Below are positions 15,126 through 38,142 of a stretch of 64,000 nucleotides of DNA, one piece after another. The stretch lies in NCBI RefSeq assembly GCF_030812675.1, contig NZ_JAUSTE010000014.1:1-64000 (forward strand), given 5' to 3'. Position 1 is the stretch's first letter; the number at the start of each line of letters is the position of its first letter. Below the pieces are notes generated by a model. The model was not told the DNA's origin. It saw only the letters and a program-made list of their open reading frames with translations, and ran no database searches. The position numbers and the translations under genes were made by a program. This DNA is from Sinomonas atrocyanea (GTDB lineage: Bacteria; Actinomycetota; Actinomycetes; Actinomycetales; Micrococcaceae).

Positions 15126-15198
15126 GGGGCTGTGGCGCAGCTGGTAGCGCACCTGCATGGCATGCAGGGGGTCAGGGGTTCGAGTCCCCTCAGCTCCA
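15126..15198 (+). tRNA. tRNA-Ala (anticodon GGC)
   Basis: A 73-nt cloverleaf. The acceptor arms GGGGCTG and CAGCTCC pair with one G-U. The anticodon stem CCTGC/GCAGG closes the loop ATGGCAT, giving anticodon GGC. The T arm GGGGTTCGAGTCCCC is canonical. The discriminator base is A; CCA is not fully encoded. G3-U70, the alanine identity element, is present in the acceptor stem, confirming the amino acid. Confidence 0.96.
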
Positions 15199-15199
15199 C

Positions 15200-15272
15200 G
15201 GGGGTATGGCGCAGTTGGTAGCGCGTCTGCATGGCATGCAGAAGGTCAGGGGTTCGAATCCCCTTACCTCCA
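15200..15272 (+). tRNA. tRNA-Ala (anticodon GGC), second copy
   Basis: A second 73-nt alanine tRNA begins after a single spacer base. Acceptor arms GGGGGTA/TACCTCC include the G3-U70 pair. The anticodon stem TCTGC/GCAGA again closes ATGGCAT. The T arm is GGGGTTCGAATCCCC. It is the same isoacceptor as its neighbour but differs at several stem positions with compensating changes, so it is not a recent exact duplicate. Confidence 0.96.
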
Positions 15273-33607: not shown

Positions 33608-34455
33608 CGGCGCTGCTGGGACGGCGCCCCCGGAGCCGACCGGGTCCCGCCGAGGAGAGCCCAGACCGGCGCGCTGCACGGCTGCAGCGCCGGTCCCGGC
33701 TGCTCCTGGGCGGCCTGCCGTTCGTCCTGGTCGCCCTCCTGGCGGCCGCCAAGCTGCTGGGCATGAACGCCTACGCCCAGGAGGCCATCGTGGCCTTCGA
33801 CGGCAAGGACGCCGCCGGCGTCGCCTCAGGCGCGGCGGGCATGGGGTTCCTCGACGTCGTCGAGACGCACAAGTCCCACTTCGCCGCCGGCGACGCCGCC
33901 GTCGTCGCGGGGGACTGGACGCGGGCCCGCGCGGAGTTCGAGGAGGCGCTGCGCCGGACGGGTCCCGACGACGAGTGCACGGTGCGGGTCAACCTGGTGC
34001 TGACCATCGAGAAGCTCGGGGACGCGGCACGGGACGCGGGCGACACCGCGAAGGCGGGGATGCTCTACCGCGACGGGGAGGCAGTGGCCGAGGCCGCCCC
34101 GCAGGGCTGCTTCCAGCAGAACAGCCCGCAGAACCAGCAGCAGCAGGGCCAGAGGCTCGGCGAGGCCAAGGAGCGGCTGCAGGGCAAGCAGGGCGCCCCT
34201 GGCCCCTCTGGCCAGCCGGCCGGACCCCCCCGCCAGCAGGACCAGCCCGGGCAGCAGGGCACCCCCGGCCCGCAGGGCCAGGCGCCCGCGCCCTCGGCGG
34301 CGCCGTCGCCCGGGCAGGGCCAGACGCCCGAGGACCAGCGGCTGCGGAACCTCGAGCGCAAGTCGCAGGCCGGCCAGCAGCAGCGCTCGGACGGGCAGCA
34401 GCGCAACGACTACCTCGACAGCCCGCCGTCGGCCCCGGTCGACAGGCCCTGGTAG
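33604..34455 (+). CDS. TPR-like membrane protein with Gln/Pro/Gly-rich tail (BatC-like)
   Basis: A 283-aa protein closing the MoxR operon. One transmembrane helix (about residues 36-55, LLLGGLPFVLVALLAAAKLLG) leads to a helical region with a TPR-like pattern (AAGDAAVVAGDWTRARAEFEEALRR, then AGDTAKAGMLYRDGEAVAE). Residues from about 170 onward are Gln/Gly/Pro-rich low complexity (QNQQQQGQRL, PGQQGTPGPQGQ). The layout parallels BatC-type TPR proteins. No terminator with a T-tract follows; the metF leader begins within about 50 nt. Confidence 0.8.
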   Translation: MTALLGRRPRSRPGPAEESPDRRAARLQRRSRLLLGGLPFVLVALLAAAKLLGMNAYAQEAIVAFDGKDAAGVASGAAGMGFLDVVETHKSHFAAGDAAVVAGDWTRARAEFEEALRRTGPDDECTVRVNLVLTIEKLGDAARDAGDTAKAGMLYRDGEAVAEAAPQGCFQQNSPQNQQQQGQRLGEAKERLQGKQGAPGPSGQPAGPPRQQDQPGQQGTPGPQGQAPAPSAAPSPGQGQTPEDQRLRNLERKSQAGQQQRSDGQQRNDYLDSPPSAPVDRPW

Positions 34456-34496
34456 CAGTCACATTCCGTCACTGCAGGACACATTCCGGCGGGGGC

Positions 34497-34526
34497 TTGA
34501 TGGAGCCGTGCCTGCCTTTCTAGGCT
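34497..34526 (+). promoter_or_regulatory. Candidate promoter of metF-metE
   Basis: TTGATG (34497-34502) and TAGGCT (34521-34526) are separated by 18 bases. Transcription from here would start near 34533 and give a leader of about 215 nt that contains the hairpins described next. Confidence 0.45.
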
Positions 34527-34535
34527 CGTAGGCAA

Positions 34536-34602
34536 GTTGCTCGTGCAACGTGTCAGCGATCCCCCTCAGCGGGGATGTGGGTGCCCCCGTGTGGGCCTGA
34601 CA
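34536..34602 (+). promoter_or_regulatory. Structured 5' leader of metF-metE, possible riboswitch of unassigned class
   Basis: A hairpin GTTGC-TCGT-GCAAC (34536-34549) is followed at once by a potential three-way junction. Its closing stem is TGTCAG (34551-34556) with CTGACA (34597-34602). One arm is ATCCCC (34559-34564) with GGGGAT (34571-34576), and the other is GCCC (34583-34586) with GGGC (34593-34596). Further complementary segments follow before the metF start. It does not match what I know of SAM-I, SAM-IV or cobalamin cores. The position before two methionine-synthesis genes makes regulation plausible. Pairings are seen in sequence; function is inference. Confidence 0.4.
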
Positions 34603-34749
34603 TTTGCCGCAGGGACCAGTCCTGGTCGTACAGCGCCAGCCGCGGCGGCGCTCTAGGAGCGGACCTTCCCTGCGATCCCTGAAGAACCCTGCCCTGGCGA
34701 TGCGCCGTGCCCCGGCGCGCCAGTGCAGACCGGACACCCAAGGATGCAG

Positions 34750-35700
34750 ATGTCACCACCGACCCTCATCGACGTACCCGGCGCCGCAGCACCGGCGCCC
34801 ATCGCCCTCTCCTACGAGCTGTTCCCACCGCGCAGCCCGGCGGCCTCGCAGAGCCTGTGGACCACCATCCGCGAGCTCGAGGCCACCGATCCCGACTATG
34901 TCTCCGTGACGTACGGGGCAAGCGGGTCCAACCACGACACCGCCCTGGACCTCGTGGACCGCCTCCAGCTCGAGACCACGCTGCGCCCGCTGGCCCACCT
35001 CACCTGCGTCGGCGGGACGCCCGAGGAGCTCACCGGCGTCGTCAACGAGCTCCTGGACCGAGGCGTGCGCGGGATCCTCGCCCTGCGGGGGGACGCCCCG
35101 CGGGACGGCGCCCTTCCACGCGGCGCGCTGCGCCACGCCCAGGACCTCATCGAGCTGATCCGACGGGCCGAGGGCCGCCGGTGCGCCCAGTTCGCGGCCG
35201 GCAAGGTCGCGATCGGCGTGGCGGCGTATCCCACGCGCCACCCGGAATCGCCCAGCGAGGTCCACGACATCGAGGTGCTCCTGGCCAAGCAGCGCTCGGG
35301 GGCGGACTTCGCCATCACGCAGGTCTTCTTCCGCGCCGAGCAGTACGCCTCGCTCGTGCACCGTGCACGGCGCGCGGGGGTGACGATCCCCATCATCCCG
35401 GGGATCATGCCCTTCACGAGCCTGCGCCGCGTCGAGAAGCTCGCCCAGCTCTCCGGCGTCGCCCCCGACCCCGCGCTCGTCGACAGGCTCCGTGCCGCCG
35501 GCGGCGATGCGGCGGCGGTCCGCAGGATCGGCACCGAGGCCAGCGTCCGCCTGGCCGAGGCCGCGCTCGCCGCCGGCGCCCCGGGCCTGCACCTCTACAC
35601 CTTCAACGAGCACGGCGCGGCGCTGGACGTCCTCGCCCGGCTCGACCTCCCGCGGCCCCGCCGGCCGCTGCTCGCGGCCCGCCACCGGGCCGCCGTCTGA
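34750..35700 (+). CDS. metF: Methylenetetrahydrofolate reductase
   Basis: Reduces 5,10-methylene-THF to 5-methyl-THF, the methyl donor used by the MetE encoded next; 316 aa. Family motifs: SYELFPPRSPAA near the N-terminus, DYVSVTYGASGSN, LAHLTCVGGT, GILALRGDAPRD, the FAD/NADH site region GVAAYPTRHPE and FAITQVFF, and PIIPGIMPFTS. I choose ATG 34750 because AAGGA lies 5 nt upstream; ATG 34744 overlaps that site. It is 33 nt before metE in the same direction. Confidence 0.94.
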   Translation: MSPPTLIDVPGAAAPAPIALSYELFPPRSPAASQSLWTTIRELEATDPDYVSVTYGASGSNHDTALDLVDRLQLETTLRPLAHLTCVGGTPEELTGVVNELLDRGVRGILALRGDAPRDGALPRGALRHAQDLIELIRRAEGRRCAQFAAGKVAIGVAAYPTRHPESPSEVHDIEVLLAKQRSGADFAITQVFFRAEQYASLVHRARRAGVTIPIIPGIMPFTSLRRVEKLAQLSGVAPDPALVDRLRAAGGDAAAVRRIGTEASVRLAEAALAAGAPGLHLYTFNEHGAALDVLARLDLPRPRRPLLAARHRAAV

Positions 35701-35733: not shown

Positions 35734-38142
35734 ATGACTGCCCAGCACACCCCTGCCCAGTTCCCGTCTGCCACCGTCCTCGGCTACCCGCGCATCGGCC
35801 GCCGCCGCGAGCTCAAGAAGGCCGTCGAGGCCTACTGGGCCGGCGCCAGCTCCCTGGCAGAGCTCGAGGCCTCGGCCGAGGCGCTCCGGCTCGCCACCGT
35901 GGACCGCCTCGCCGAGCTCGGCCTGACCGGCACCGCCGCCGTCCCCGGCACCTTCTCCTTCTACGACCAGGTCCTCGACACGCTCGTCGCCCTCGGCGCG
36001 GTCCCGGCGCGCTTCGGGACGCTGCACGACGGCGACGGCCGCCTCGGCCTCGACGCCTACTTCACGCTCGCCCGCGGCACCGCCGAGCAGCAGCCGCTGG
36101 AGATGACCAAGTGGTTCGACACCAACTACCACTACCTCGTGCCCGAGATCGGCCCCGAGACCGAGTTCTCGCTCTCCTCGGAGCGCATCGTCGAGGAGTT
36201 CTCGCTCGCCCTGGCGCACGGGACCGTCACCCGGCCCTACCTCGTCGGGCCCGTCACCTTCCTCGGGCTGTCGAAGGCGTCCGACGGCGCGCCGGCCGGC
36301 TTCGCGCCGCTGTCCCGCCTCGAGGACATCCTCCCGGTCTACGCCGAGCTCCTCGAGAAGCTCGCCGCCGCAGGCGCGCCGTGGGTCCAGCTCGACGAGC
36401 CTGCCCTGGCGGCCGACCTCGACCTCCCCGGCGGCACCTCGCCCGCCGAGGTGAGCGCCGCCGTCGGGCGCGCCTACGCCGCCCTCACGGCGCCGGCCGC
36501 CGGGTCCGGGCGCCCGGCGATCCTCCTCTCCGCCCCGTACGGAGGCCTCGGCGAACAGGCCGCCGCCGTGGCCGCGACGGGCGTCGAGGCCGTGGCGCTG
36601 GACCTGTTCAAGGGCCAGCTGCCCGCGAACCTCGGGCAGTTCGCCGGCAAGACCGTCGTGGCCGGGGTCGTGGACGGCCACAACATCTGGCGCAACGACC
36701 TCGCAGCCTCCGCCGCCACGCTCGACGCCCTCCGCGAGGCCGGCGCGCGCCACGGCTTCGAGGTCGCCGTCGCGACGTCCACCTCGACCTTCCACGTCCC
36801 GCACGACGCCGAGGAGGAGACCCAGCTCGACCCGCAGCTGCGCAGCTGGCTGGCCTTCGCCGACCAGAAGGTGCGCGAGGTCGTGACACTCGCCGGCCAC
36901 CTCGCCGCTCCGGGCTCCCAGGACGCGGCCCTGGCGGAGTCCTCGCGGATCCTCGCCACCCGCGCCGAGGCGCCGGGTGTGCGCCGGCCCGAGGTCCGCG
37001 AGCGCACCGCGGCCCTCACGGCCGAGGACTTCTCCCGCTCCGGGTACGGCGTCCGCGCCCAGGCCCAGGAGGCCGTGCTCGAGCTGCCCCCGCTGCCCAC
37101 CACGACCATCGGCTCCTTCCCGCAGACCGCCGAGGTCCGCAGCGCGCGCGCCCGCCTGACAAAGGGCGCGATCGACGAGGCCGAGTACGAGCGGCTCATG
37201 AAGGACGAGATCGCCCGGGTCATCGCCCTGCAGGAGGAGCTCGGCTTCGACGTGCTCGTCCACGGCGAGCCCGAGCGCAACGACATGGTCCAGTACTTCG
37301 CAGAGCACCTCGACGGGTTCGACGTGACGGTCCACGGCTGGGTGCAGTCCTACGGCTCCCGCTGCACGCGCCCCTCCATCCTGTGGGGCGACGTCTCCCG
37401 GCAGGCCGGCCCGTCGATCCTCTGGGGCGACGCGGAGAGCGCCGCGCCCATCACCGTCCCGTGGGCCGCCTACGCCCAGTCCCTGACCGACAAGCCCGTC
37501 AAGGGCATGCTCACGGGCCCCGTCACGATCCTCGCGTGGTCATTCGTGCGCGACGACCAGCCGCTCGCGGAGACCGCCAACCAGGTGGCCCTCGCCCTCC
37601 GCGACGAGATCGCCGACCTCGAGGACGCCGGCATCCGCATCATCCAGGTCGACGAGCCGGCCCTCCGGGAGCTCCTGCCCCTGCGCGCCGCCGACCGCCC
37701 CGCGTACCTGGACTGGTCCGTCAAGGCCTTCCGGCTCGCCACGGGCGGGGCCGGCGACGCGACCCAGGTCCACACGCACCTGTGCTACTCGGAGTTCGGC
37801 GTGATCATCGACGCGATCGACGGCCTCGACGCCGACGTGACCTCGATCGAGGCCGCCCGCTCCCGCATGGAGGTCGTCACCGACCTCGAGGCGCACGGAT
37901 TCGGGCGCGGCGTGGGCCCGGGCGTCTACGACATCCACTCGCCCCGCGTACCCGGCCAGGAGGAGATCGAGGAGCTGCTGGCCCGGGCCGTCGAGCACGT
38001 CCCCGCCCGGCAGCTGTGGGTCAACCCGGACTGCGGGCTCAAGACGCGCGGCTACGAGGAGACCGAGGCCTCGCTGCGGAACCTCGTGACGGCGGCGAAG
38101 GTGGCCCGGGCCGCGCTCGCGGACGTGTCCTCGGCCGTCTGA
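35734..38142 (+). CDS. metE: Cobalamin-independent methionine synthase
   Basis: Transfers the methyl group of 5-methyl-THF-triglutamate to homocysteine; 802 aa, slightly longer than usual. The N-terminal half begins with [21 protein letters not shown]. The C-terminal catalytic barrel starts at [16 protein letters not shown] and contains the zinc ligands: His and Cys in [11 protein letters not shown], a glutamate further on, and Cys in [25 protein letters not shown] binds homocysteine. Small insertions rich in Ala/Gly explain the extra length. It is co-transcribed with metF; regulation is probably through the shared leader. Confidence 0.96.

Follow-up and report, generated by a model that had tools for sequence, protein, structure and literature searches.

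The metF-metE locus

The window analysed here is a 64,000-nt stretch of the Sinomonas atrocyanea genome (positions 1 to 64,000 of the forward strand of contig NZ_JAUSTE010000014.1, assembly GCF_030812675.1). It carries metF, which encodes methylenetetrahydrofolate reductase, and metE, which encodes the cobalamin-independent methionine synthase. The metF product matches TIGR00676 with an E value of 1.7e-77 and 260.5 bits, under the curated cut-off of 293.7, and the nearest metF relatives of this genome are those of Sinomonas. The leader of metF-metE occupies window positions 34534-34749. The features of the locus, with the evidence for each, are as follows.

34497-34526, + strand: promoter-like pair, TTGATG (34497-34502), an 18-nt spacer and the -10-like TAGGCT (34521-34526); sequence and pattern count
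34536-34549, + strand: P1, 5' hairpin GUUGC-UCGU-GCAAC, arms 34536-34540 and 34545-34549; covariation
34552-34601, + strand: P2, closing stem of a three-way junction, GUCAG (34552-34556) with CUGAC (34597-34601)
34557-34559, + strand: junction J2/3, CGA; identical in 94 of 94 elements
34560-34575, + strand: P3, hairpin of variable length, TCCCCCTCAGCGGGGA in the window; covariation
34576-34582, + strand: junction J3/4, UGUGGGU; invariant in the alignments
34583-34596, + strand: P4, hairpin GCCC-CCGUGU-GGGC; pairing count
34602-34607, + strand: tail AUUUGC, with an AUUYG core; conservation
34599-34607, + strand: anti-start sequence GACAUUUGC, made up of the 3' part of P2 and the tail; complementary to 34746-34754
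34608-34674, + strand: spacer hairpin, base CGCAGGG (34608-34614) with CCCUGCG (34668-34674); pair probability 0.98-1.0 in the window
34740-34744, + strand: Shine-Dalgarno-like AAGGA of metF; sequence
34746-34754, + strand: start site GCAGAUGUC, partner of the anti-start sequence, with one U-G wobble in the window; complementarity and predicted fold
34750-35697, + strand: metF, ATG at 34750-34752, stop codon at 35698-35700
35734-38142, + strand: metE, 953 bits against TIGR01371, above the cut-off of 929.95

The promoter-like pair had been pointed out in the initial annotation and recurs in relatives: in 88 of 92 loci, a TTG-N-TAnnnT pattern immediately precedes the element, compared with 66 of 1840 shuffles. 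The same annotation had drawn a nested stem at 34509-34534. This stem is unconserved even among Sinomonas and overlaps the -10-like box. It is therefore most likely upstream promoter DNA and is rejected as part of the RNA, with transcription predicted from the sequence to start, probably, at about 34534.

Further upstream in Arthrobacter loci (for example, L041 2198-2205), a conserved DNA block resembling GCGTCTTAATTCGG is seen about 10 nt 5' of the -35-like box. The sequence TTAATTCG, with at most one change, occurs upstream of the promoter in 61 of 92 loci and in 39 of 1840 shuffles. The block is possibly an operator or an UP-like element, so the metF-metE operon may additionally be under transcriptional control.

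A conserved RNA core in the leader

Folding of the single leader sequence is only mildly above chance (z about -1.9), and the comparative signal is much clearer. Across 15 metF upstream regions from the genus Sinomonas, one common block is retained, AGTTGC-n-GCAACGTGTCAGCGATCCCC-n-GGGGATGTGGGTGCCCCCGTGnGGGYCTGACATTTGCCGCAGG, while the surrounding DNA changes freely. The core recurs 5' of metF in Arthrobacter and Pseudarthrobacter. Three alignments were built, comprising 32 of 78 unique elements (A1), 70 of 94 non-redundant elements (A2) and 68 of 92 elements (A3). In the 70-row alignment A2, 94.8% of cells are paired under the proposed structure compared with 87.5% in shuffles, and 128 cells hold double changes compared with 39; neither value is reached by any of 500 shuffles. 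The number of pairs with a double change (10, compared with 7.8 in shuffles) is reached by 30 of 500. When the partners are slid out of register, pairing in this alignment falls to 30-48%. The shuffles behind these covariation figures ignore the relatedness of the sequences.

The signal is unevenly spread over the helices. P1, the GTTGC/GCAAC hairpin of the initial annotation, is present and covaries: 85.4% of its cells are paired and four of its five pairs show double changes in the 70-row alignment, with arm versions GTTGC/GCAAC, GTTAC/GTAAC, GCTAC/GTAGC and ACGTT/AACGT across loci. It has no clear counterpart in four loci (L020, L024, L158 and L159). P3 shows double changes at all six pairs in the same alignment, and its five outer pairs are formed in 466 of 470 cells, whereas 1000 shuffles of the arms give a mean of 88.8% and a maximum of 90.9%. 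Its length varies from 13 to about 65 bases across Sinomonas, Arthrobacter and Pseudarthrobacter, and from 13 to 17 nt within Sinomonas.

P2 and P4 are near-invariant, so covariation can neither prove nor disprove them, and P1 and P3 carry that part of the argument. P2 and P4 are supported instead by their presence in 93-94 of 94 elements. P2 is formed in all 94, with a single change of one A-U pair to G-U. Each of the four pairs of P4 is formed in 93-94 of 94, and the changes that occur there are one-sided (G-C to G-U, for example); its length is 14 in 91 elements, 15 in two and 13 in one. The three-way junction that had been proposed from TGTCAG/CTGACA (34551-34556 with 34597-34602) is thus conserved in structure. 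The tail reads ATTTG in 89 elements, ATTCG in four and CTTTG in one.

In the window (34576-34596) and in many relatives, the word UGUGGG stands on either side of the CCCCC of P4. Either copy would be able to pair with it, which leaves room for a triple or an alternative P4.

Of the further complementary GC segments noted downstream, the one that forms the base of the spacer hairpin is borne out in the window, and in the Arthrobacter consensus a hairpin of different sequence occupies the same position. Taken together, the alignments argue that the metF-metE leader is a genuine conserved RNA.

Predicted pairing of the tail with the metF start site

The anti-start sequence GACAUUUGC can base-pair with the metF start site GCAAAUGUC. 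This complementarity was assessed in 92 of the 94 loci; two lacked an automatically assigned start (L172 and L189, which by eye carry ACGAATGTC and GCAAATGTC, respectively), and the start of L009 was picked by eye. All nine pairs can form in 83 loci, eight in four, seven in one, six in three and five in one, whereas the 20 metF loci without the element offer 3 to 7 of the 9 pairs. The mean falls from 8.79 pairs in register to 2.2-4.2 at offsets of -8 to +4. Wobble pairs preserve the helix where metF has a GTG start and where A has changed to G. L170 and L171 carry a double change, ATTTGT/ACAAAT, of which L144 has a wobble version. The distance between the tail and the start site ranges from 61 to 199 nt.

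Predicted folds agree with these counts. RNAalifold places the tail AUUUGC against GCAAAU at the start codon in the post-aptamer leaders of three separate groups (14, 33 and 18 sequences), and the minimum-energy folds of 81 of 92 leaders include the anti-start helix, compared with those of 7 of 155 controls with shuffled start flanks. Column covariation in this helix is weak (four double-change cells, with a covariation score reached by 36 of 500 shuffles) because the helix includes the start codon.

A few loci depart from this pattern. In L155 and L161, just five continuous pairs with the start site remain. In the subclade with an AUUCG tail (L022, L148, L165 and L167), start pairing is degraded, and the helix is replaced by UUCGUACG/CGUACGAA just 5' of the Shine-Dalgarno sequence in L022, L165 and L167, and by a version of 7 bp in L148.

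Distribution among genomes

The covariance model R1 matches 91 of 295 Micrococcaceae genomes at E values up to 1. Of these, 89 matches are strong (E <1e-10), spread over 11 genera, with one strong copy per genome in this family search. In all 89, metF lies directly 3' on the same strand, within 300 bases, and metE lies 3' of the element in every retrieved stretch except one (G121, L168). Conservation of the metF upstream regions and compensatory changes across 11 genera are what a novel or divergent methionine-linked RNA, as the initial annotation had put it, should show.

Searches of wider scope yielded strong matches in Micrococcaceae alone: 15 among 396 genomes at the order level with R1, and, with model R2, 4 among 394 at the class level and 2 among 396 at the phylum level. 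These searches used stricter filters, which distant forms could escape. Six class- and phylum-level matches (E ~0.03-0.04), and those in G024, G601, G526 and G079 together with a second match in G221, have neither metF nor metE in the neighbouring stretches. Eight of these 11 were checked, and all eight sit within open frames of 255 to 1136 codons; the 11 are accordingly treated as chance. Four genomes from element-rich genera (G105, G175, G189 and G195) have neither the element nor a metF match, which suggests that the two were lost together.

The SAM-I riboswitch in sister loci

Among the 20 metF loci that do not carry the element, 16 have a SAM-I riboswitch (RF00162) in the same position. 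Twelve of these matches lie above the gathering score and four below it, with E values of 1e-6 to 5e-4. The remaining four comprise two leaderless loci for which metE was not found adjoining (L277 and L278) and two from another family (L029 and L030). A metF tree was built from 39 of the 94 elements, 14 of the 16 SAM-I loci, the two leaderless loci and two outgroup sequences. In this tree, the SAM-I loci form one group (96/85), and the element loci and the two leaderless ones fall across a 99/98 branch. L277 and L278, where metF directly follows an unrelated gene, are placed on the element side, and the element therefore seems to have been lost from them together with the operon.

SAM-I is common elsewhere in the family. 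Matches occur somewhere in 248 of the 295 genomes and in 53 of the 89 that bear the element, and the sites that were read lie upstream of sulfur genes, among them sfnG, metY, a metE-like gene and genes for ABC binding proteins. The genome that contains the window has two SAM-I matches (G000:C15 65698-71909, L263 and L253), one of them slightly under the gathering score; they precede an acyl-CoA ligase-like gene and sfnG, which encodes dimethylsulfone monooxygenase. The presence of SAM-I at sister metF loci and its retention at other sites suggest that the element replaces a SAM sensor at the metF-metE operon and not elsewhere.

Methionine synthase content was surveyed in 55 genomes. MetH scores above its cut-off in 3 of 30 element-bearing genomes and 1 of 25 others, and a further six of the 55 show partial matches that fall well short of it. 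Consequently, MetE is usually the sole methionine synthase detected by these models. The cobalamin riboswitch (RF00174) was found, under stricter filters, in none of the 55 genomes and nowhere in the window, while 9 of 14 control genomes were positive.

Searches against known RNA classes

The initial annotation had reported that the cores of known methionine-related classes are absent, and the covariance searches agree. Against 4227 Rfam families, the leader gives no match at gathering scores, and the sole matches in the window are two neighbouring tRNA genes (15126-15272). With the threshold relaxed to an E value of 10, the core remains without a match in the stretch 34300-34900 and in loci L269, L144, L148, L145 and L022. 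That stretch yields three chance-level matches, none on the core, one of them further upstream; another, to mir-3389, covers the spacer hairpin (34636-34701) and scores 17.2 bits where the gathering score is 75. The third, to Pyrobac-1 on the minus strand inside metF (34830-34899; 28.1 bits against 40), is probably chance in GC-rich coding DNA.

Models of the SAM clan (SAM-I, SAM-IV and SAM-I-IV), which do find SAM-I in the sister loci, match neither the window nor the five further loci. In the whole-library scan, SAM-VI, SAM-III and the SAH riboswitch (RF01057), whose models are assumed to be in the library, are likewise unmatched. A known Rfam class is rejected on these grounds.

Competing folds and a proposed mechanism

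Strong conservation, the lack of an Rfam family, the capacity to hide the start site and the position that SAM-I holds in sister genera together give the element the look of an undescribed methionine switch. By comparison and prediction, the 5' leader joins a conserved aptamer-like core to a competing expression platform, as expected of a riboswitch. The preferred explanation, put at even odds, is an undescribed riboswitch that acts on translation within the methionine cycle, of a class absent from Rfam and with SAM as the most likely ligand. The most far-reaching reading, with a probability of roughly 0.55, is a new riboswitch class for a methionine-cycle metabolite (SAM or SAH), confined to Micrococcaceae, that replaces SAM-I at metF-metE and whose aptamer tail pairs with the start codon, re-targeted to the Shine-Dalgarno region in one subclade.

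The leader would then act in cis as a metabolite-sensing RNA that governs translation of metF and thereby the metF-metE operon. Its ligand would be a methionine-cycle compound, most likely S-adenosylmethionine. Binding would allow the P2 junction to form and free the tail AUUUGC; the helix that the tail then makes with GCAAAU at the start codon would stack on P2 and stop translation. In the ligand-free RNA, either CGA/UUYG and UGUGGG/CUGACA pairings or the 3' arm of P1 may hold the tail, and metF would be translated. The spacer hairpin may draw the tail and the start site together. Both ligand identity and switch direction in this SAM-OFF reading are what we infer.

The strand CUGACAUUUGC is contested by three folds, namely P2, the start site and possible antisequestors. 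RNAalifold on 32 sequences predicts the alternative CGA/UUYG fold, which draws on the same near-invariant bases as the P2 junction, so that covariation cannot separate them. On average, this alternative is less stable than P2 by 2.2 kcal/mol, and none of the 92 minimum-energy folds computed for the 5' part contains it. Pairing of the tail with P2 extended by the 3' arm of P1 averages -10.3 kcal/mol, compared with -7.9 for shuffles (sd 1.8); by pair count, the extended P2 is not separated from chance, with 88 of 92 own sequences and 621 of 920 shuffles reaching eight pairs. When the 5' part is folded alone, P2 is present in the minimum-energy structure of 52 of 92 sequences, compared with 0 of 92 for the full leader, where forming it costs a mean of 7.6 kcal/mol.

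Weighing the rival explanations

By these energies, the leader is closed when no ligand is bound, and this fits an ON switch more simply than an OFF switch. In an ON switch, GACAUUUGC would close the start site in the ligand-free RNA, and SAH or homocysteine, as signals of unmet methyl demand, would stabilise P2 and the tail and open the start codon. The sequestered start site in 81 of 92 full-leader folds, the absence of P2 from all 92, its presence in 52 folds of the 5' part, and the GAC shared by P2 and the 9-bp anti-start helix are consistent with this, as are the SAH riboswitches of Proteobacteria, for which ahcY and metF are core targets in the available part of PMC4239095. The SAM-I matches that persist in 53 of 89 element-bearing genomes also mean that a second SAM sensor is not required a priori. 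However, the tail/RBS helix of the AUUCG subclade does not overlap P2 and leaves it free, which favours an OFF switch. With P2 formed in the window, six of the nine anti-start pairs can form at no predicted cost (-103.6 compared with -103.7 kcal/mol). A SAM sensor occupies this position in sister genera, and the element matches no Rfam family, SAH included. An ON switch is less likely than the SAM-OFF reading but a serious rival, and the predicted energies by themselves do not settle which way the switch works.

The element could instead be read in cis by a protein or small RNA, or its structure could serve only to set translation or mRNA stability, with no ligand bound directly; this is slightly less likely than the ON switch. 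A distribution restricted to one family and a single strong copy per genome would suit it, as would the putative status of any ligand. A compact core, invariant junctions and a covarying hairpin of variable length are typical of aptamers, however, and the element, whose junction loops and tail are invariant and whose hairpin is free in length and covarying, has this appearance and sits where sister genera have a riboswitch. That the element diverged from within a known SAM class (SAM-I, SAM-IV, SAM-III or SAM-VI) is very unlikely. Its gene context equals that of SAM-I in relatives, and SAM-VI, in the accessible portion of PMC6914780, is likewise an actinobacterial three-way junction, whose closing stem contains the AUG and with which a 5' stem, P0, competes. 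Yet the core stays unmatched up to an E value of 10 in the stretch 34300-34900 and in five further loci, divergent ones among them, the same library detects SAM-I in sister loci, and the closing stem forms without the start site.

A cobalamin switch for the B12-independent synthase has a precedent in metE of Mycobacterium tuberculosis, which is under a B12 riboswitch according to the part of PMC11260477 consulted. Here it is highly improbable, and is rejected, given how rarely metH exceeds its cut-off and the lack of cobalamin riboswitches in all 55 genomes. More remote still is a peptide leader, or attenuator. In the window, 16 codons running from GTG to TGA (34550-34600) form an open frame over the junction, but the encoded peptide, VSAIPLSGDVGAPVWA, has no methionine beyond its start, and P3 changes length by single bases among close relatives, so the frame is not preserved and a leader peptide is rejected. 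Chance pairing in GC-rich DNA, to which the modest single-sequence z score could be attributed, is just as hard to credit and is refuted by conservation and covariation across 11 genera.

Implications

Relative to the initial annotation, the comparative analysis adds the complementarity of tail and start site, the SAM-I riboswitches of sister genera and the assignment of the first stem, most likely, to promoter DNA. If the element binds SAM or SAH, it would add one more class to a group of riboswitch ligands for which sensors have been re-invented many times. The locus would also represent a natural replacement experiment, with SAM-I in one clade and the element in its sister clade at the same operon, in genomes many of which still have SAM-I elsewhere. 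Its aptamer tail would reach across 61 to 199 nt to capture a start codon, and one lineage would have re-targeted it to the Shine-Dalgarno region. The element occurs in soil bacteria, and an RNA of roughly 90 nt would suffice to test the switch.

Comparison with known systems

No such element appears among the matches listed in the literature searched, although an earlier description is possible. The main texts of PMC11109978, PMC8632094, PMC6429828, PMC2864571, PMC7266159 and PMC10043782, in their available parts, do not mention metF.

The SAH riboswitch resembles the element in gene context, since metF is one of its core targets in Proteobacteria (PMC4239095, as far as available). The element differs in lineage and in having no Rfam match, and its ligand is putative. 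SAM-I (RF00162) shares its position upstream of metF-metE in sister genera. Unlike SAM-I, the element consists of a three-way junction, a 5' hairpin and a start-codon pairing, and it has no SAM-I match.

SAM represses through SAM-III riboswitches. The element resembles SAM-III, or the SMK box, which has a three-way junction with the Shine-Dalgarno sequence within the switch, and it would work as SAM-III and SAM-VI do, by a junction combined with ribosome blocking, which is predicted for the element (PMC6914780, available part). In SAM-III, however, the Shine-Dalgarno sequence lies between the stems, whereas that of the element is far downstream of the junction, and no Rfam match links the two.

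SAM-VI, the actinobacterial riboswitch of Bifidobacterium metK, is similar in several respects in the portion of PMC6914780 that was available. Both are actinobacterial three-way junctions with a highly conserved strand and a competing 5' hairpin, and in both the start region is pulled into the switch for translational control, as predicted for the element. P2, P3 and P4 supply the three-way junction that SAM-VI and SAM-III have in common, but the start codon (34750) and the Shine-Dalgarno sequence lie neither in nor beside the closing stem (34552-34601), and the start site can be reached only through the tail/start helix. Thus, in contrast to SAM-VI, the element stands at metF-metE, its conserved sequence is missed by every Rfam model, and its closing stem is set apart from the start site, with the pairing made by a tail 61-199 nt upstream.
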